Origin: a virus
Reading direction: 5' to 3' (one strand)
Length of the DNA: 57,073 nucleotides
Virus record (IMG/VR): IMGVR_UViG_3300036860_000377
Span: 1-57,073 of that record
Shown here: positions 1 through 57,073 of the stretch, piece by piece
Numbering within the stretch: the first letter of the stretch is position 1
Layout: the number at the start of each line of letters is the position of its first letter
Notes under the pieces: model-generated
Database searches by the model: none
Told to the model about the DNA's origin: nothing
What the model saw: the letters and a program-made list of their open reading frames with translations, nothing else
Position numbers and translations under genes: made by a program

Positions 1-127
1 TCCCGTGGACAAGCAGTCGAACCGCTACTACATCATCGATCCGGACTCGTGGCTCCGCGTGCCGGACACCCGGAGAGCGCCCAAGACCCGACCGAATCGT
101 ATCGAGTTCAAGGTGTCCTCGGACGCC
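1..127. repeat. Left copy of 127-bp terminal direct repeat
   Basis: The first 127 bases are identical to 56947-57073. The major capsid reading frame runs unbroken through the join, so this is the overlap of a circular assembly or a circularly permuted genome, not a gene duplication. The length, 127, equals a common assembler k-mer, which favours an assembly overlap over a true physical terminal repeat. Confidence 0.95.
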
Positions 128-835
128 TACTTCGCGAACAACTACGCGTTGGCGGGCGACATCGCGAAGGAGGATCTCGCCAACGCCGATCGCGCGCTCC
201 AGGTTCGTGAGAACACCACGAACATCGTGCTCCAGTCGCTCCTGCAAGACTTCGAGGTCCGGGTCGCGAACCAGGTGACCTCGGCCACCAACGTCGGCTC
301 GGGTGTGACCGTCTCCAGCAAGTGGAGCGATCTCACGAACTCCAACCCGCTCGTCGACGTGACGACGGCGATCGCCTTCATTCGACAGACGACCGGTATC
401 ATGCCGAACACCCTGGTGGTCGACGAGGATACCTACCAGGTGCTCCGACGCCATTCGAAGCTCCTGGAGCTGTATAAGTACACGTCCGGTGGCCTGCTCG
501 GTGACGACCAGATCGCCGCAGCGATGGGCGTGACGCGTCTGCTCCGCGGGCGCGGCATCGTGAACCGGGCCCTCGAAGGTCAGACGGCCTCGATGGTCAA
601 TATCTGGGGCAACAACGCCTTGCTGGCCTACGTGCAGCCGGGGCTCAGCATGATGACGGCCACGCTGGGGCTGGCCCTTCAGTGGACGCCGGAGGGCATC
701 CCGGGCCCGATGGCCGTCTATCGCTACGACGATCCGGACCCCGGAAAAAAGGTGGAGACGGTCGAAGCCTGTTACTACCAGGCCGAAAAGATCGTCGGCA
801 AGAACCTCGGCTATCTGATGGTGGCGCCGAGATAA
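2..835 (+). CDS. Major capsid protein, C-terminal part (continues from 56813)
   Basis: This is the rest of the gene that begins at 56813. Codons are in phase from base 2, and joining across the 127-bp repeat gives a protein of 322 residues, a usual size for an HK97-fold coat protein. An automatic start at the GTG at 5 would be false, because the frame is open upstream on the other end of the window. The call rests on length, on position after protease and decoration genes, and on composition; no diagnostic short motif is visible. It would form the icosahedral shell. The stop TAA (833-835) overlaps the next ATG. Confidence 0.8.
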   Translation, partial: PVDKQSNRYYIIDPDSWLRVPDTRRAPKTRPNRIEFKVSSDAYFANNYALAGDIAKEDLANADRALQVRENTTNIVLQSLLQDFEVRVANQVTSATNVGSGVTVSSKWSDLTNSNPLVDVTTAIAFIRQTTGIMPNTLVVDEDTYQVLRRHSKLLELYKYTSGGLLGDDQIAAAMGVTRLLRGRGIVNRALEGQTASMVNIWGNNALLAYVQPGLSMMTATLGLALQWTPEGIPGPMAVYRYDDPDPGKKVETVEACYYQAEKIVGKNLGYLMVAPR

Positions 836-1035
836 TGCAGCGCGTCTTCATCAGGCAGACTGCCGACTTTAGGGTCGGTGACCTGAGCCCAGAAAACTGG
901 TCCGACCCGCAGTGGGAGTCGTTTCAGCGCGCCCATGGTCCGCAGGAGACGTATTCGGTTACCGTGGAGGAGGCTCAGAAGGTTGGCGCCGAGACCATCG
1001 CGGCTCAGCGTGGTCGGCGTGGACCGCGCCCGTAG
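835..1035 (+). CDS. Small head-region protein, 66 aa
   Basis: The ATG at 835 overlaps the capsid stop, implying translational coupling. The frame is open further upstream, but that part lies antiparallel to nothing and overlaps the capsid gene, so 835 is the sensible start. The product is charged, ends in an Arg/Pro-rich tail, and has no signal peptide or membrane segment. No family is recognised. Its place directly after the coat gene suggests a minor head or head-tail joining role, which is inference only. Confidence 0.65.
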   Translation: MQRVFIRQTADFRVGDLSPENWSDPQWESFQRAHGPQETYSVTVEEAQKVGAETIAAQRGRRGPRP

Positions 1036-1044
1036 GGCGGCGCC

Positions 1045-1383
1045 ATGATCACGTACCCCACGATCCCGCTGAGCGGGACCGTGACCGACGTCATCGACGT
1101 CTCGCAGGCCCGCGACAACCTTGGGCTGTGGATTCCGACGATCACCAGTGGGCAGGTATTGCTTCGCGGCTCATTCGATCAGACGTCGGCCAACTTCGTG
1201 CCCGTCTTCAACCCGAATGCGACCCCGATCTCGTCCCGCTGGTACGTGGATGCGGCGGCGGGCAACCTCACCCTGGCCATCGACTGGCAGGCCGTCACGT
1301 TTCCGTTCATCAAGCTGGAGACGTCGGTAGTTCAGGCCGCCGTCCGTTCGTTCGCCGTGTTTAGCAAGGGGGCCGGGGCGTGA
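1045..1383 (+). CDS. Putative virion protein, 112 aa
   Basis: The product is rich in beta-forming residues, Thr, Ser and Val, and has no Cys, which suits a small beta-sandwich virion or head-completion protein. It lies between the coat gene and the large glycosyltransferase fusion, and its TGA overlaps the GTG start of the fusion (GTGA at 1380). No family motif is recognised. A head decoration or neck role is a guess from position. Confidence 0.65.
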   Translation: MITYPTIPLSGTVTDVIDVSQARDNLGLWIPTITSGQVLLRGSFDQTSANFVPVFNPNATPISSRWYVDAAAGNLTLAIDWQAVTFPFIKLETSVVQAAVRSFAVFSKGAGA

Positions 1384-4316
1384 CGGGCCTCGATATTTGT
1401 CTCCTTGTGTCAGGGCTGCCGTTTCAAGGCGATAGCCTGGAGAAAAAAAGCCTTGGGGGCGCGGAAACGGCCGGGCTTTGCCTGGCGCGGGAGCTCGCCC
1501 GTCTGGGTCATCACGTCATGATGTTCACGAACGGTGGATCCGGCGGCGTCTACGACGGGGTCGTGTATCGATCGGTCCACGAATTCACCGATTACGCCAC
1601 CTCGGCGCCCCATGACGTGACCATTGTCCAGCGGCTCCCGCAAGGGTTTGCCACGAGGATGGCGAGCCGGCTCAACGTGCTCTGGTGCCACGATCTGGCG
1701 CTGGTGCGCCAGGCCGCGACCTTCAAGGCCGTGCTCTGGAACGTCGACCGCGTGGCCGTCTTGTCGAAGTTCATGGCGGAACAGTACCGCGAGGTCTACG
1801 GCATCCCCGACGAGGTGCTCTGGACCACGCGGAACGGGATCGATCTGACCCTCTTCGATGGGTTGCACGATCGCCCGCGCGATCGCTGCACGCCGCTCGT
1901 CTACGGAGCTCGCCCGGAGCGCGGGATCGACGTGCTGTTGACGACGATCTTTCCGCGTCTGCTCCGCGAGGAGCCGGGTCTCACGCTGAAAATCGCGACC
2001 TACGATAATCCGGTCCCTAATCTCCGCCCCTTCTACGACAACGTTAACGCCCTGATCGAGCGGTTTGGGGACCGGATCGTCTTCCTTGGATCGCTCCCGA
2101 AGCGCCAGTATTACGAGCATCTTGCGACTGCCGGCGTGTACGTGTATCCGACGCCCTCGCCGGCCGAACCGATGTTCGCCGAGATTTCCTGCATTACCGC
2201 CATGGAGTGCCAGGCGGCAGGGTTGCCGATCGTGACGAGTCGCCGCGGCGCGCTTCCAGAGACGATCGCGCCCGCTGCGGGGGTCTTGATCGACGGCGAG
2301 CCGGGCACGGAGGCGTACGCCGATGCATTCTGTGACGCTGTCCTGCGCTACGTGCGTGACGACGCGTTCTGGCGCGCGGCCTCCACCGCTGGGCGCGAGC
2401 GCGCGTCCTCGCTCGACTGGCGCGGGGTTGCCGAGGAATGGTCGGACGAATTCCATCGACTGATCCGGACGCGGAACGAGAGTCCACATCGACTCGTTCA
2501 TCATTTCATCAAGCGGTCTGACATCATGGCGGCGCAGGCGGTCCTCGATCGCGAACTCGCCGAAGCGCCAGTTCTGATTGAGTCCGGGTGGCTCAAGCGA
2601 CGCGAACCATTCGTAGAGCTCCGCGACCGCATCGCGCGCGACTGGGCCTTCAGCTCGACTCGCGACGCGATCCGCGAACAGTACGAGAAGATCGGCCAGA
2701 CCCATACCGACGTCTTCGAGCAGGTGCCACGCGAGCCCCGGTTCCAGATGCTGGAGCAGTGGTTCACGGCCCATCCAGAGATCACGCGCGTCCTTGATTT
2801 CGGCTGCGCGCATGGGGGCTACGCCGTCAACATGACCAATCGCGTGGGACGGGAATGGGTCGGAGTCGACGTCGACAAGTATTCGATCGAATGGTGCGAG
2901 AAGAATCGCCGGGAACGGTCCACGAATCCCGAAGCGCTCCGGTTCGTCGTCGGCGACGATCAGGTTGATCTGTCGAACGAAGCGCCCTTCGATTGCCTCC
3001 TGCTCTTCGAGATCCTGGAGCACGTGCCCGATCCGACTACGCTAATCGACCGGCTCGAGCGGTGGGTCAAACCGGACGGCTATGTGTTGATCACCGTGCC
3101 CTACGGCCCGTGGGAATGGATGTCGTACGAGACGTATCCCCATCGGTGCCATCTCTGGGAATTCGACGCGCATGATCTCCGCGATCTCTTCGGGAAGAAG
3201 CGGCAGCGCATCACGCAGGTGATGCGGGCGGGAGCCTGCGAAGACCTGAATGAGCCGATCGGCTGGAACATCATCGAATACCGCGTTGACGGCACGCCGA
3301 CCGGCCGGATCGATATGGAGCGAAAGCTCGCGCTTCAGCGTCCGCGGGAGACCGTCTCGGCCCTCATGATCGCGGGCCCAAACGCCGAGGAGACGCTCCA
3401 CTGGTCGCTGCGATCCATCAGGCACGTCGCCGATGAGATCGTAATCGCCGATACCGGCATGACCGACGAGGCCAGTCGGATCTGCGCGCAGTATCGCGCC
3501 CGCATCATTCCAGGCTCGAATCCGACCGAGGCTGGCTTCGAGACGCCACGGAACGAAGCGCTGGCCCACTGCCGGATGGACTGGGTGCTGTGGATCGACA
3601 CCGACGAGCGGCTGACCGATCCGCAGAAGCTCCACAAGTACCTCCGGACGAACATCTTCCGGGGCTATTCGATCAAGCAACATCATTTCGCGTGCGACAC
3701 CGCGATTGCGCAAGATCTACCGGTCCGGTGTTTCCGGCGGACGCCTGACGCTGAGGGTCGGATGCTCCGGTGGTACGGGATGATCCACGAACATCCCGAG
3801 GCCGAGCTGAACAAAGGCCCCGGACTCGCGATCGTGCTGTCGGATGTGCACATCGCCCATGTCGGGTATCTGATCGAGTCGGGACGGCGCCGACGGTTCG
3901 GGCGGAATTGGCCCCTGCTCCAGAAGGACATGGAGAAGTACCCGGATCGCATCATTCAGAAACATTTCATCTGCCGGGACAATCTCTTGCTCGCGCAGTG
4001 GGAACTTCAGCAGAACGACGGCGTGATGACGCCTGCGATTCGTGCGCGGCTTGAGGAAGTCAAGCGCCTGTACCGCGAGCACTTCCTCGGCAAAGGGACG
4101 TTCCTGGGCACGGATGCATTGCCCTATTACTCCGACGCGCTCCAGATGCTCGGGGAGGGCGTCGAGGTCGCCTTCGGCGTCGGCGCATCCAAGGAGCCCG
4201 GGGCGACCGTCGGGACGCCGATGAAGGCGAGGTTCGCGACGATCGAGGAGGCCGAGAAGGAGATTGCGTGGCGCACACGCGAGGCCATGGCGCCCTGGGT
4301 GTCGCCATGGTGGTAG
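1380..4316 (+). CDS. Three-domain glycosyltransferase-methyltransferase-glycosyltransferase fusion
   Basis: This is a single 978-residue frame with three catalytic modules. Residues about 1-365 look like a GT-B glycosyltransferase of family 4: GGAE near residue 26 and a late acidic E-x7-E region with AAGLPIVTS near 275-290. Residues about 440-620 look like a class I SAM methyltransferase: VLDFGCAHGG near 471, the acidic GVDVD near 494 and EILEHVPDP near 544. Residues about 655-960 look like a GT-A family 2 glycosyltransferase, with ADTG near 691 and the DTDE metal-binding motif near 738. There is no signal peptide or membrane segment. The fusion starts at a GTG overlapping the preceding stop and sits inside the head module, upstream of the connector. 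It probably builds or caps a glycan on virion proteins or host surface sugars; the substrate cannot be told. Confidence 0.85.
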   Translation: MTGLDICLLVSGLPFQGDSLEKKSLGGAETAGLCLARELARLGHHVMMFTNGGSGGVYDGVVYRSVHEFTDYATSAPHDVTIVQRLPQGFATRMASRLNVLWCHDLALVRQAATFKAVLWNVDRVAVLSKFMAEQYREVYGIPDEVLWTTRNGIDLTLFDGLHDRPRDRCTPLVYGARPERGIDVLLTTIFPRLLREEPGLTLKIATYDNPVPNLRPFYDNVNALIERFGDRIVFLGSLPKRQYYEHLATAGVYVYPTPSPAEPMFAEISCITAMECQAAGLPIVTSRRGALPETIAPAAGVLIDGEPGTEAYADAFCDAVLRYVRDDAFWRAASTAGRERASSLDWRGVAEEWSDEFHRLIRTRNESPHRLVHHFIKRSDIMAAQAVLDRELAEAPVLIESGWLKRREPFVELRDRIARDWAFSSTRDAIREQYEKIGQTHTDVFEQVPREPRFQMLEQWFTAHPEITRVLDFGCAHGGYAVNMTNRVGREWVGVDVDKYSIEWCEKNRRERSTNPEALRFVVGDDQVDLSNEAPFDCLLLFEILEHVPDPTTLIDRLERWVKPDGYVLITVPYGPWEWMSYETYPHRCHLWEFDAHDLRDLFGKKRQRITQVMRAGACEDLNEPIGWNIIEYRVDGTPTGRIDMERKLALQRPRETVSALMIAGPNAEETLHWSLRSIRHVADEIVIADTGMTDEASRICAQYRARIIPGSNPTEAGFETPRNEALAHCRMDWVLWIDTDERLTDPQKLHKYLRTNIFRGYSIKQHHFACDTAIAQDLPVRCFRRTPDAEGRMLRWYGMIHEHPEAELNKGPGLAIVLSDVHIAHVGYLIESGRRRRFGRNWPLLQKDMEKYPDRIIQKHFICRDNLLLAQWELQQNDGVMTPAIRARLEEVKRLYREHFLGKGTFLGTDALPYYSDALQMLGEGVEVAFGVGASKEPGATVGTPMKARFATIEEAEKEIAWRTREAMAPWVSPWW

Positions 4317-4327
4317 GGCGGTGAGCG

Positions 4328-4843
4328 ATGCCAGCGACCCTGCCAGTCTCCTATACGACCACGAGTCTGATGTTCATCACGTTGCCGGATCTCGGCAGCG
4401 TGACGACGCTGAGCAGCGCCCACATCGCGACCTTCGCTGGTGAGGCCGAGTCCGAGATCAATGCCAACATCGCGAGGTATTACGCACTCCCGCTGACGGT
4501 TGACGTTCCGCTCCTGACGACCCTCGCGACCGATATCGCGATTTACAAGATCTTGACTCGGCGGTTATTCACGGCCGAGCGTCTGGCCGCCAGCCCCTGG
4601 CCCGATCGGTACCGGGAATCTATCGCCATGCTGCTCAGGGTCGCGGCCGGCGAATTGCCACTCGTCGATGCGTCTGGCGCCATGCTTCCCGGACGCACCG
4701 ATGTGGCCGAGGTGTTCTCGACGACGAAGAACTACAAGCCGACGTTCTGGGAAGGCCCGAATCAGTATCAGTGGATCGATCAGCAGAAGGTGGAGGACGA
4801 GGCTGCCGCCCGGGACATCACGCTTCGGAACATGGTGCGCTGA
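4328..4843 (+). CDS. Head-tail connector, DUF1320 / Mu gp36-like
   Basis: The 171-residue product has the pattern of the DUF1320 family (phage Mu gp36): a short N-terminal strand, then a helix of the type ESEINANIARYYALPL, then helices with the DIAIYKILTRR pattern. Members sit at the neck where the head meets the tail. The gene is placed between head genes and the tail terminator candidate, as expected. Its TGA overlaps the next ATG (TGATG at 4841). Confidence 0.75.
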   Translation: MPATLPVSYTTTSLMFITLPDLGSVTTLSSAHIATFAGEAESEINANIARYYALPLTVDVPLLTTLATDIAIYKILTRRLFTAERLAASPWPDRYRESIAMLLRVAAGELPLVDASGAMLPGRTDVAEVFSTTKNYKPTFWEGPNQYQWIDQQKVEDEAAARDITLRNMVR

Positions 4844-5277
4844 TGCGGATTGATTACTGGGGTCTGGAAGAAGAGGTGAAGGCGATCCTCGATACCGAAT
4901 TGGTCGATGGGCACGTTGATATCGAGCGCGAGTTTCAGTTCGCGAGCGAATCGACACCATGGGTCGGGATCTATCTCGATCGCCGTGACGCCCCTGCCAG
5001 TCTGCAACCTCTCGCGGCTGGCAAGCAGACGCGGATGCTCGTCCGCCTTCGCCTCGACTGCCGAGCCTACAGCCTGGAGTCGATCGCTCGGGCGAGTCAG
5101 TTCCGCGATGAACTCATCGGGCGCGTGGAAGTCGCGCTCATGAAGCACCGAGACCTGAACGGGAAGGCGACGGCGAGCTGGCTGGAGGGCGGGTCGTTCT
5201 CGCGTGTGCCTCAGCAGGACGGCTGGATCAGTGGCGGCGAAGTGATGCTCGTGGCCGACGTGAAAGCGACGACGTAA
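4843..5277 (+). CDS. Putative neck or tail-terminator protein, 144 aa
   Basis: The start at 4843 overlaps the connector stop. The 144-residue product mixes helices and strands, has no Cys or membrane segment, and lies directly before the tail tube gene, the classic slot for the tail terminator or Mu gp37-like neck protein. The assignment is mainly positional; I see no diagnostic motif. Confidence 0.6.
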   Translation: MRIDYWGLEEEVKAILDTELVDGHVDIEREFQFASESTPWVGIYLDRRDAPASLQPLAAGKQTRMLVRLRLDCRAYSLESIARASQFRDELIGRVEVALMKHRDLNGKATASWLEGGSFSRVPQQDGWISGGEVMLVADVKATT

Positions 5278-5289
5278 AGGAGAGCCCGC

Positions 5290-6252
5290 ATGCCCTACGG
5301 ATTCGCGGGATTTATCGGTTTTGCGGAGGAGACGACGTGGGGCACCCCCGTCGGTGTCAACTCGGGCGATTTCATCGAGGCGATGAGCGAGAACGTCACC
5401 CTCGCGATCGATCGCTATGAGGCCCGCAACATCGTCGGCCGGTTCGTGGAGGGCGACGACTTCGCGGGAACACGGCGAATCGTCGGCGATCTTGTGTTCC
5501 CGGCCCATCCGCTGCATCTGGGCCGGTTCCTGAAAGCCAACTTCGGCAATATCTCGACGGTCACGGTGGTACTCTCCGGCTTCCTGTGGGAGGTGGACTT
5601 CCGCCCTGCCACAGCCGACGCGGCGGCGAACAATCCCCTGCCGCCTCTAACGCTGGAGATCTTTCGCGACGTTACGAGCTCCAACCGCTACGCCGGCGCG
5701 CAGGTCACGAAGCTGGGTCTGTCGGTGCAGCCGAACCAGGACCTTCGGGCGACGGCGAGCATTCTCGCGAAGACGACCAGCATGGTGGCGAAGTCGACCC
5801 CGACGTATCCGGCGACTGGAACCAACCCGTTCGTGTTCGACACCGCGAGCGTGCAGATTGCTGGCAGCGCCGTGGATTACGTCGAATCGCTGGCCATCGA
5901 GTTCGACAACCAGCTCGAGGGCATCCCGGTCTTGAACAACTCGACTGACATCGCGAGGGTGCGACGGCGCGGTGCCCAGCAGATTCGGGTACGAGGCACG
6001 GTTGGGTTCGAGACCGCGGCGGAATATGGGCGCTTCACGCAACAGAGCGAAGCCAACCTCGTCGCGTCCTGGGCCCAGACGAATTCGTTCGGGCTTGTGC
6101 TGCGGGTCCCGCGACTGATTTACACGGCGTTTCCGCTCGGAATGCCAGGCGATCAACGGCTCACGGTGGCCTTCGAGGGCATGGGGCGCTTTGACGCGAC
6201 GCTGGGCTTCGCGCTGCAGGCACGGCTGACGACCGTGAAGAGCAACTACTGA
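5290..6252 (+). CDS. Tail tube protein
   Basis: The 320-residue product follows a good ribosome site (AAAGGAGAG before ATG 5290). Its N-terminus, with GFAEETTWGTPVG, matches the usual opening of siphovirus tail tube proteins, and the rest is beta-rich with few charged clusters. It lies between the terminator candidate and the frameshifted chaperones, the conserved order in long-tailed phages. It would stack as rings to make the hollow tail. The stop TGA overlaps the next ATG. Confidence 0.75.
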   Translation: MPYGFAGFIGFAEETTWGTPVGVNSGDFIEAMSENVTLAIDRYEARNIVGRFVEGDDFAGTRRIVGDLVFPAHPLHLGRFLKANFGNISTVTVVLSGFLWEVDFRPATADAAANNPLPPLTLEIFRDVTSSNRYAGAQVTKLGLSVQPNQDLRATASILAKTTSMVAKSTPTYPATGTNPFVFDTASVQIAGSAVDYVESLAIEFDNQLEGIPVLNNSTDIARVRRRGAQQIRVRGTVGFETAAEYGRFTQQSEANLVASWAQTNSFGLVLRVPRLIYTAFPLGMPGDQRLTVAFEGMGRFDATLGFALQARLTTVKSNY

Positions 6253-6623
6253 TGAAATGCCTGACGCGCGATCAGATCCTCGCCGCAGAAGACCTCCCGC
6301 GGAAGCTCGTCGAAGTCCCAGAGTGGGGCGGGTCGGTCTACGTCCGACATCTAACGGCCCAGGAGCGGGTCGAGTGGGCCTCGCAGGCCGATGCGCCAAA
6401 AGGACACACCATCGCGAGCCTCTTGGTGCTCTGTCTTGTGGACGCGGATGGCCATCATGTATTCACGAAGGACGACATCCCGAAACTGCTGGAGAAAAAC
6501 GGCGTCGTGGTCGATCGCCTCGCCGGCGAAGTCATCGAGCTCAACGGGCTGCGGGCGCGGGACGAGGAGCGGATCCTAAAAAACTCCGGGGCCGGCCCGA
6601 GCGCCGGCTCCACCTCCGAATAG
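6252..6623 (+). CDS. Tail assembly chaperone (gpG-type)
   Basis: The 123-residue acidic product lies between tail tube and tape measure, the invariant position of gpG-type chaperones that coat the tape measure during tail assembly. The decisive evidence is a heptamer A AAA AAC at 6578-6584 in exact zero-frame phase, from which a -1 shift enters the frame ending at 6769. The unshifted product ends at 6623 with a Gly/Ser-rich tail. Sequence identity to known chaperones cannot be judged by eye; the architecture makes the call. Confidence 0.8.
   Translation: MKCLTRDQILAAEDLPRKLVEVPEWGGSVYVRHLTAQERVEWASQADAPKGHTIASLLVLCLVDADGHHVFTKDDIPKLLEKNGVVVDRLAGEVIELNGLRARDEERILKNSGAGPSAGSTSE
6578..6611 (+). 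promoter_or_regulatory. Programmed -1 frameshift site with downstream hairpin
   Basis: The heptamer A AAA AAC (6578-6584) fits the X XXY YYZ rule in the zero frame. Downstream is a hairpin with core arms GCCGGC at 6591-6596 and 6603-6608 and a 6-base loop, extendable outward by three pairs (one G-U) to 6588-6611. The 3-6 base spacing suits stimulation of slippage. Confidence 0.8.
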
Positions 6624-22915: not shown

Positions 22916-23605
22916 ATGGCGCGCGAGTTCACGACGACTACGGATCAGGTTGCCTTTACCAGTGATGCCGGGCTGAACATCACCGGCGACATTACCATCT
23001 ATGCATGGATCTATCTGAACGCGGGAGCGGTCTATCACGAACTCGTCGCGAAGATGGCGACCAATCGCGGGACCGATGTCCCCTATCTCTTCCGGACCAC
23101 GAACGCGAATCCTCCTGTTCTCTTCTTCTCGCGGGCGCACGCATCGGCTCCGGCTTCAGCCAGTTCAACCGGAACGATTTCAATCGGGGCATGGCATTGG
23201 GTGTGCGTGACCCATGACGGAACCACGGCGACGTTCTACATCGATGATCCCGCGACCGCTGATAGTTCGCCCGGACTGAACCTCATCCCGACGACGACAA
23301 CCGACGATATGACGATTGGAGAAGGCGAGGGGAATCTTGGGGGGAATTGTCGCATCGCCTGGGTCGGCATTCATACCGCTGTTCTGGGAGCGGATGATCG
23401 CGCGACCGCCAAGAATGAAGGCGTCGTTTCGACCAGCGGGATTCTCGGATGCCAGCTCGGGTCGGACCCGGAGCCGGATACCCTCGGAAGTCGCTCCGGC
23501 ACGGTGACGGGAAGCACCGTCATCGATGGACCACCCGGCGTTCCGGCTGGGGCGCCGCCCTCCCCAACCATCATCGGCGTCCTGTCGAGCGGCCTCCGCT
23601 GGTAG
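22916..23605 (+). CDS. LamG-type lectin-fold protein
   Basis: The 229-residue product follows directly on the previous stop. It has the jelly-roll pattern of concanavalin A-like/LamG domains: ITIYAWIYLN, then GAWHWVCVTHDGTTATFYID, then RIAWVGIHTAVL. A short Pro/Ser-rich C-terminus follows. Such domains bind glycans, fitting a receptor-binding or accessory fibre role. Confidence 0.7.
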   Translation: MAREFTTTTDQVAFTSDAGLNITGDITIYAWIYLNAGAVYHELVAKMATNRGTDVPYLFRTTNANPPVLFFSRAHASAPASASSTGTISIGAWHWVCVTHDGTTATFYIDDPATADSSPGLNLIPTTTTDDMTIGEGEGNLGGNCRIAWVGIHTAVLGADDRATAKNEGVVSTSGILGCQLGSDPEPDTLGSRSGTVTGSTVIDGPPGVPAGAPPSPTIIGVLSSGLRW

Positions 23606-39849: not shown

Positions 39850-40727
39850 TACCGCGATCGAGTGGAGCGACAAGGTTTGGAACCCGATCATCGGGTGTAG
39901 CCGCGTCTCGGCCGGGTGTACTGCGTGCTATGCAGAACGCCAAGCGTACCGCAACGCGGCGATGGGGATCAGCCGCTATCGACCGGATCTTCGCCGTGAT
40001 GGCGCTCGCCGATCGGCACACGTTTCAGATCCTCACGAAGCGGCCCGAGCGGATGCGCGCCTACTTCGCTGACGGCTGGGATGGGGTGTTCTACCGATTC
40101 GAGGACACGCCGGAGCATCGCCGAATAGACCACGAGGGCAATAGCGGCAACAAGGAGTGGAGCCAGGAAGCTGCCGACCGAGTGAGCCACGCGCGGCAGG
40201 CGATGCACGGCGCGCCCCTCCCGAACGTCTGGCTCGGCGTCTCCGTCGAGAACCAGGCGACGGCGGACGAGCGCATCCCGCTACTGCTCCAGACGCCGGC
40301 GGGGGTTCGGTTCCTCTCCGTAGAGCCGCTATTAGGGCCGGTCAATCTCATGGGGCGCGGACGCTACCTAGCGCACGTGGGTGAGCATGGAATCGGCTGG
40401 GTGATTATTGGCGGCGAATCAGGCCCCGGCGCGCGGCCGTGCGATCTGGCGTGGATTCGCTCCGTCGTCGCGCAGTGCAAGGCGGCCGGCGTCCCGGTGT
40501 TCGTCAAGCAACTGGGGAGTCTCCCGATCTGGGACGGCTGTGGCCTCATGGCTAACAACACTCCAGGGCCGACCGAGCGCGTTCTCATGCGCGAGAAGGT
40601 CACCGACAGCGACGGTTACCGCCCCGTCGTCGACGTCGAGATGCTGCGGCTGCGCCTCCGCGACCGCAAGGGCGGCTCAATGGAAGAATGGCCCGAGGAT
40701 CTGCGCGTGCGGGAATTCCCGAAGTGA
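39842..40727 (+). pseudogene. Disrupted DUF5131 (phage Gp37/Gp68-like) gene
   Basis: The frame from ATG 39842 begins as an intact DUF5131 protein (TAIEWSDKVWNPIIGC, then GCTACYAERQAYRNA), with the family's Cys cluster. It then runs out of phase. The family continues in the +1 frame from about 39978: IDRIFAVMALADRHTFQILTKRPERM, and on to RFLSVEPLLGPV and GWVIIGGESGPGARP, ending at 40727. About 50 residues expected between the two halves, the part with the SMSDLFH-like motif, are absent. So the gene has a deletion plus a frameshift. The second half alone could start at ATG 39930 (265 aa). Confidence 0.75.
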
Positions 40728-56812: not shown

Positions 56813-57073
56813 ATGGAGAAGCGCTACGCCGTCGCCGCCGCCAGTGGACGGGACGCCCATCTCGACGCACCGCTGACCAACCTCGCGGTCGCGGCCTTCG
56901 CCTCCGGGGCGGAGGGCTACATCGCCTCCCAGATCTTCCCGGCCGTTCCCGTGGACAAGCAGTCGAACCGCTACTACATCATCGATCCGGACTCGTGGCT
57001 CCGCGTGCCGGACACCCGGAGAGCGCCCAAGACCCGACCGAATCGTATCGAGTTCAAGGTGTCCTCGGACGCC
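56813..57073 (+). CDS. Major capsid protein, N-terminal part
   Basis: ATG 56813 opens MEKRYAVAAASGRDAHLD and runs off the window; the frame continues at base 2 of the window. Joining the two parts gives 322 residues. The first 46 codons are found only here, because the copy at the left end starts inside the gene. Confidence 0.8.
   Translation, partial: MEKRYAVAAASGRDAHLDAPLTNLAVAAFASGAEGYIASQIFPAVPVDKQSNRYYIIDPDSWLRVPDTRRAPKTRPNRIEFKVSSDA
56947..57073. repeat. Right copy of 127-bp terminal direct repeat
   Basis: Identical to bases 1-127 and in the same reading frame of the capsid gene. It marks the circular join. Confidence 0.95.

Follow-up and report, generated by a model that had tools for sequence, protein, structure and literature searches.

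A near-constant GT4-methyltransferase-GT2 fusion in the head module of uncultured tailed phages, a candidate enzyme of virion glycosylation

The window, i.e., the whole stretch of 57,073 bases analysed here, starts within the major capsid gene, and the features of its first part are collected in Table 1. The first 127 bases are identical to the last 127 and the N-terminal part of the capsid protein is encoded at the opposite end of the window, so the genome looks complete, with a size of about 56.9 kb. The gene encoding the fusion of two glycosyltransferases (GTs) and a methyltransferase shares its first 4 nt with the end of the 112-aa gene, and the adaptor gene starts 11 nt past the fusion stop codon. 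No promoter-like sites were found in a pattern scan of positions 1-6300. The preliminary description had placed a 978-residue ORF with three catalytic modules (1380-4316) between coat and connector genes; Pfam matches and motif residues bear out the modules, and the PHROG matches, to a head protein before the ORF and an adaptor after it, bear out the placement. An antisense ORF of 537 aa overlapping the fusion (1410-3023) was taken as a probable high-GC frame artefact. Further genes of the window encode an integrase, DNA methyltransferases, and a LamG-like protein (22916-23605).

Table 1. Features in the first part of the window.
Feature	Position	Strand	Basis
Major capsid protein, 5'-truncated at the window edge	2..835	+	phrog_1005, 1.3e-56
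Short ORF, 66 aa, from the capsid gene to the 112-aa gene	835..1035	+	Short-ORF cluster in 13 loci; membership by eye
Small beta-rich protein, 112 aa; candidate decoration protein of the virion, candidate substrate	1045..1383	+	Family in 14 loci
GT4-methyltransferase-GT2 fusion	1380..4316	+	978 aa, GTG start; Pfam, AlphaFold2 model
GT4 domain, residues 5-362, EX7E at E268/E276	1392..2465	+	Pfam, structure matches, conservation
Class I SAM methyltransferase domain, roughly residues 430-640	2667..3299	+	Pfam, PDB profile, conservation
GT2 domain, residues 655-872; DxD D740/D742, HEHPE 803-807	3342..3995	+	Pfam, PDB profile, conservation
C-terminal helical region, residues 873-978, family-specific, variable	3996..4313	+	Identity 0.264; helices in model
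Head-tail adaptor (connector)	4328..4843	+	phrog_195, 4.6e-13; after the fusion in relatives too
Tail protein, order kept behind the fusion	5290..6252	+	phrog_290; relatives

Every Pfam domain match of the fusion exceeds its curated cut-off. Two GT4 halves (PF13439, 1.3e-10, residues 26-157; PF13692, 1.1e-11, residues 179-319) and the EX7E motif identify a retaining GT4 enzyme of GT-B fold, the Methyltransf_23/11 profile (Methyltransf_23, 2.6e-19, residues 463-605) and the SAM-binding motif residues a class I SAM-dependent methyltransferase, and Glycos_transf_2 (3.8e-9, residues 668-748) together with DxD a GT2 enzyme of GT-A fold. In the NCBIfam scan of the fusion, no model reached its cut-off. 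The structure prediction proposed in the preliminary description gave a good model of the whole chain (AlphaFold2 with a 14-sequence alignment; mean pLDDT 86.5, pTM 0.85). The fusion has no long hydrophobic segment, the best 19-residue mean being 1.41.

A scan of IMG/VR with the single protein found 15 relatives, and an alignment-based scan matched 303 stretches, 289 of them encoding a relative, of which the best 80 were taken further. In 84,980 species genomes, 10 loci with relatives were found, all in MAGs by title, labelled Myxococcales, Deltaproteobacteria, SAR324, Desulfobacterales, and cyanobacteria. Profiles of four segments, run over 168 loci, revealed 126 ORFs that each encode GT4, methyltransferase, and GT2 in this order. 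Repeats of some contigs are included; 101 ORFs are distinct and 88 are complete and non-redundant, with a median stop-to-stop length of 983 in the 101-row alignment. The domain order that the preliminary description had suggested looking for in other phages is thus common to many of them, and the number of same-order open frames rules out a chance or assembly join as its origin. A common bacterial enzyme that was merely acquired was likewise rejected, as each of 5 MAG genomes had one full-length match and otherwise matches of single-domain size. None of the 50,697 phage records or 72,556 plasmid records covers 80% of the fusion. Of the 152 records with a capsid match, five cultured relatives were read, CRP-6, Ottawa, ValentiniPuff, RSP, and RDJL Phi 1; in none of them is a GT annotated in the stretch from the capsid gene to the tail genes, and gp102 of Ottawa (767 aa) gave no GT match in Pfam.

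The capsid gene precedes the fusion gene in every one of the first 14 IMG/VR fusion loci (L001-L014) with a capsid match, and the adaptor gene follows it in 13 of the 14; it was not matched in L001, which has only about 0.5 kb of sequence past the fusion. Measured from profile match to profile match, the median distance was 760 nt from capsid to fusion (96 ORFs) and 41.5 nt from fusion to adaptor (88 ORFs, 45 of them with less than 60 nt). To select loci by the capsid, the best 80 of 205 capsid relatives were taken, and 39 had at least 5 kb downstream of the capsid gene. All 39 carry at least part of the fusion and 34 carry it complete in one ORF, in a set that is biased to the fusion's lineage because the capsid profile (A2) was derived from fusion-carrying loci. 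The fusion is incomplete at L033 and L062, and the same contigs hold it complete in L121 and L125, respectively; it is cut by the contig end in L055, longer in L075, and interrupted in frame in L013. In L040 the adaptor stands before the fusion. Six loci (L018, L019, L151, L152, L153, and L155), each with at least 6 kb of upstream sequence, gave no capsid match in the 8 kb read. In L151 the fusion has as neighbours a radical SAM gene and further ORFs that are not head genes, indicating that the module can move.

Loss of catalytic residues had been named as a possible objection to the fusion being an enzyme, and the motif residues of both GTs proved nearly invariant in 101 sequences. In the GT4 EX7E motif, E276 is present in 101/101, and position 268 holds E in 92 sequences and D in 9, while D740 and D742 of the GT2 DxD motif are present in 100/101 with one gap. 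The methyltransferase residue D497 is present in 84 and is N in 15. Of the 101 sequences, 71 retain every one of the twelve motif residues examined, and the other 30 comprise 15 with D497N, 9 with E268D, and 6 truncated sequences. The mean pairwise identity was 0.40 for GT4, 0.32 for the methyltransferase, 0.47 for GT2, and 0.26 for both the linker and the C-terminus. Identities of the three domains vary together (Mantel r 0.785, 0.706, and 0.640; 88 complete non-redundant proteins) and also co-vary with the capsid protein (r 0.836, 0.761, and 0.675; 65 proteins with capsid), the latter values being close to that of capsid versus adaptor (r 0.827; 39 loci). The domain and domain-capsid tests gave 0 of 2000 shuffles each, counts that are not probabilities of function since relatedness inflates such correlations. 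The co-variation fits one old fusion inherited together with the head genes.

The genes around the fusion vary between relatives. The 112-aa protein belongs to one family, placed between capsid and fusion in 14 loci counting the window and duplicated in L001; its model is of low confidence (pLDDT 63.7), and Pfam gave a match below the cut-off only. A second family of small, apparently beta-rich proteins (97-210 aa) occupies the capsid-fusion stretch of 16 loci. This stretch also carries extra GT4 genes (e.g., L021 and L147), separate methyltransferases (L088), radical SAM proteins (e.g., L129), and a glycosidase-like protein (L011). Short ORFs similar to the 66-aa ORF stand at its place in other loci, and HNH-like genes were noticed by eye in the stretch in some relatives. 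Between fusion and adaptor, L121 encodes a UDP-glucose/GDP-mannose dehydrogenase (1.5e-20) and a GDP-mannose dehydratase-like enzyme (8.5e-69). That genes for nucleotide-sugar enzymes adjoin the fusion favours the cytoplasm as the site of sugar transfer.

To place the GT2 domain, a profile of 16 domains was searched against all PDB chains. Three entries matched almost the full length of the domain: GmaR (5.4e-27), SunS (6.1e-23), and 7msk (2.8e-20). The next match, chondroitin synthase (1.1e-7), covered under half of it, and matches were partial from there on. The GT2 domain of the distant member L151, searched alone, gave the same top four. Judged among solved structures, its full-domain kinship is closer to GmaR and SunS than to other GT2s, so that by sequence comparison it appears to belong to the clade of protein and peptide GT2 enzymes; similar lipopolysaccharide GT2 enzymes may exist beyond the structures compared. 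The NCBIfam model of the SunS family (TIGR04195) scored 17.5 bits, far below its cut-off of 350. A relative of the GT2 domain on an enterococcal plasmid adjoins an ORF that reads by eye as a C39-peptidase ABC transporter, an arrangement like that of glycocin loci.

GmaR, the top full-domain PDB match, carries a GT domain that moves GlcNAc onto Listeria flagellin; it differs from the fusion in having TPR, linker, and antirepressor domains (PMC9638930) and no GT4 or methyltransferase. SunS, prophage-derived according to its PDB name, is classed as a glycocin glycosyltransferase (PMC12457901) and differs in its single GT domain and its target, a secreted peptide.

The nearest structures of the GT4 domain were tied and include PimB', a methylmannose polysaccharide mannosyltransferase, TarM, SdgB, and GtfA. 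SdgB and GtfA are protein O-GlcNAc transferases, level with many others, and the ties extend across protein, lipid, and small-molecule enzymes, MshA and BshA among them, so the acceptor of GT4 is not readable from the fold. The VIA-align list of structures mostly covered residues 1-366 and says little on the methyltransferase and GT2. The methyltransferase profile had 181 PDB matches of generic class I type, among them a D-glucose O-methyltransferase (5.2e-15) and WbdD (9.4e-11), the latter related at a generic level only. WbdD caps a glycan chain.

GT and methyltransferase functions encoded within the virion structural region of a phage are already known. In the Cluster O mycobacteriophage Corndog, gp35-gp38 comprise an O-methyltransferase and GTs between portal and protease (PMC4351075). 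A later note states that the targets of Corndog-type enzymes are the capsid and the tail tube (PMC11600133, with reference to Freeman et al. 2023), and a comparable suggestion has been made in a Rhodococcus phage paper (PMC13313380). The fusion resembles this type in its location, a likeness drawn by description, but it is one chain instead of four genes and lies between capsid and adaptor instead of portal and protease. Two long uncultured-phage proteins in BFVD, A0A6J5T3W3 and A0A6J5M7M7, are named for GT or methyltransferase domains and align with the fusion over about 900 columns. Their TM-score of 0.31 by query and rmsd near 29, at 13-15% identity, indicate another domain arrangement.

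We lean towards reading the fusion as a soluble enzyme with three functions, which together would assemble a short methylated glycan on a virion protein. In this scheme, whose activity, acceptor, sugars, and order of steps are predictions, the fusion would be made late, along with the head genes, and would work in the host cytoplasm with SAM and host nucleotide sugars as donors, the latter phage-encoded in some relatives. The C-terminal GT2 domain would prime a head or tail protein by linking a sugar to one of its side chains, in the manner of GmaR on flagellin and SunS on a peptide. The N-terminal GT4 would then add one or more further sugars, and the methyltransferase would O-methylate a sugar and so cap the chain. 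Candidates for the modified protein are the capsid, the 112-aa protein, the adaptor, and the tail tube. The preliminary description had the chain possibly add a sugar, methylate it, and extend or cap it; its three modules stand, while the kinship with GmaR and SunS suggests a different order, with GT2 priming on protein and GT4 and the methyltransferase acting later. Its suggestion of virion glycosylation is supported, as a predicted role, by the capsid linkage and co-variation, the extra sugar enzymes at the same spot, and the Corndog-type precedents. Against this reading stand the generic methyltransferase matches, N in place of D497 in 15/101, the tied GT4 structures, and the six loci lacking a capsid match. 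A further objection, by analogy, is that WsaE of Geobacillus stearothermophilus, the best-known trifunctional GT-methyltransferase, is described as using a lipid-linked glycan and not protein directly.

WsaE also bears on the second role that had been suggested, late alteration of the host surface. The fusion might extend and methyl-cap a lipid-linked host glycan, an O-antigen or capsule, and alter receptors during or after infection, which we consider unlikely. WsaE, like the fusion, combines two GT domains and a methyltransferase in one soluble polypeptide; it acts on the lipid-linked chain of an S-layer glycan (PMC2943079, PMC3898925) and methyl-caps it (PMC2943079). The joining of two GTs with a methyltransferase thus has a bacterial precedent. 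WsaE differs, however, in its order, an N-terminal methyltransferase followed by two GTs, which the fusion does not share, and in its ABC export, its lipid-linked polyrhamnan, and its place in a bacterial S-layer gene cluster. The match of the methyltransferase profile to WbdD also favours action on the host surface, and so does the integrase in the window, which would make lysogenic conversion possible. However, the fusion stands near-constantly in the head operon and co-varies with the capsid protein, its GT2 domain is akin to protein and peptide GTs, and no flippase or membrane partner was noticed adjoining it in the loci read. Host-surface alteration is less supported than virion glycosylation.

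Still less probable is another cytoplasmic target, such as modified DNA bases, a host protein, or a small molecule, with the head operon serving late expression only. MshA and BshA among the GT4 neighbours and the DNA methyltransferase genes of the window would agree with such a target, but no base-hydroxymethylating enzyme was seen among the window proteins scanned (part of the ORFs), and the GT2 clade is again one of protein and peptide enzymes. It is very improbable that the fusion is itself a virion component, structural or sugar-binding, with catalysis secondary, as its head-operon position, the glycosidase-like gene at the same spot in L011, and the LamG-like gene might suggest, given that both GTs keep their motif residues almost without change across 35-76% identity and that Corndog's separate enzymes were reportedly not found in purified virions (PMC4351075).

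To our knowledge, glycosylation of phage coats has been described chiefly in actinobacteriophages, where the enzymes are encoded by separate genes. What appears new is the one-chain GT4-methyltransferase-GT2 order, encoded by a gene that is near-constant in the head module of a phage lineage; our literature search, with subscription papers mostly outside its reach, recognised no description of it. As a single compact enzyme, the fusion would allow priming on protein, extension, and capping to be assayed at once. Tentatively, we suggest that in a widespread lineage of uncultured tailed phages virion glycosylation may be a near-core part of head assembly, carried out by one priming, extending, and capping polypeptide, while the variable genes nearby (extra GTs, nucleotide-sugar enzymes, radical SAM proteins, and small beta proteins) tune the coat glycan, which would then differ from phage to phage. 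This gives a testable reason for the variable genes adjoining the capsid gene and, if true, coat glycans would appear common among uncultured phages.

The 127 bases at one end of the window (1-127) are identical to those at the other (56947-57073), and the capsid gene continues across the record ends. The record therefore appears to hold the whole of a genome whose map is circular. Among its other genes, a LamG/concanavalin-like lectin-domain gene lies downstream of the tail genes (22916-23605), and a DUF5131 protein is encoded at 39930-40727.

Several variants of the GT4-methyltransferase-GT2 fusion were found among the fetched loci. The open frame on the L075 contig is a five-part, extended form of the fusion: it has a methyltransferase and a pair of GT4 regions, and it finishes in a methyltransferase/GT2 part. 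On the contig shared by L125 and L062, three tandem copies follow the capsid gene; the first two are GT4-GT2 proteins in which no methyltransferase was recognised, while the third is a complete fusion. In L013 the frame is broken, which could reflect either decay or a sequencing error.

Coordinates of the features found at the related loci
Feature	Coordinates	Location or remark
1562-aa open frame	G006:C1:22720-27312 (L075 contig)	longer variant of the fusion
Broken fusion frame	L013:1797-4717	break between GT4 and methyltransferase regions
Nucleotide-sugar dehydrogenase and GDP-mannose dehydratase-like genes	L121:11128-15706	between fusion and adaptor
Weak capsid-like match	G001:C115:101990-102562	~39 kb away in G001
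Long protein, N-terminal GT2, TPR repeats, C-terminal GT4	L171:1656-7307	downstream of capsid gene
Long protein, TPR repeats, C-terminal GT4	L015:4396-9083	downstream of capsid-like gene (by eye)

Besides the sugar-nucleotide genes of L121, radical SAM proteins adjoin the fusion in several phages, as called by Pfam (L129, L105 and L151) or by cluster membership (L131 and L143). One of these phages has no capsid neighbour. The same is seen in Myxococcales MAG loci (L018, L019), where the fusion is preceded by small ORFs and no capsid gene was found in 8 kb; of these MAGs, G001 has its weak capsid-like match about 39 kb from the fusion. These MAG loci possibly represent a domesticated or satellite element.

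The TPR-and-GT proteins of other phages, L171 and L015, constitute a second layout within a head module, one like that of GmaR, the Listeria flagellin GlcNAc transferase.
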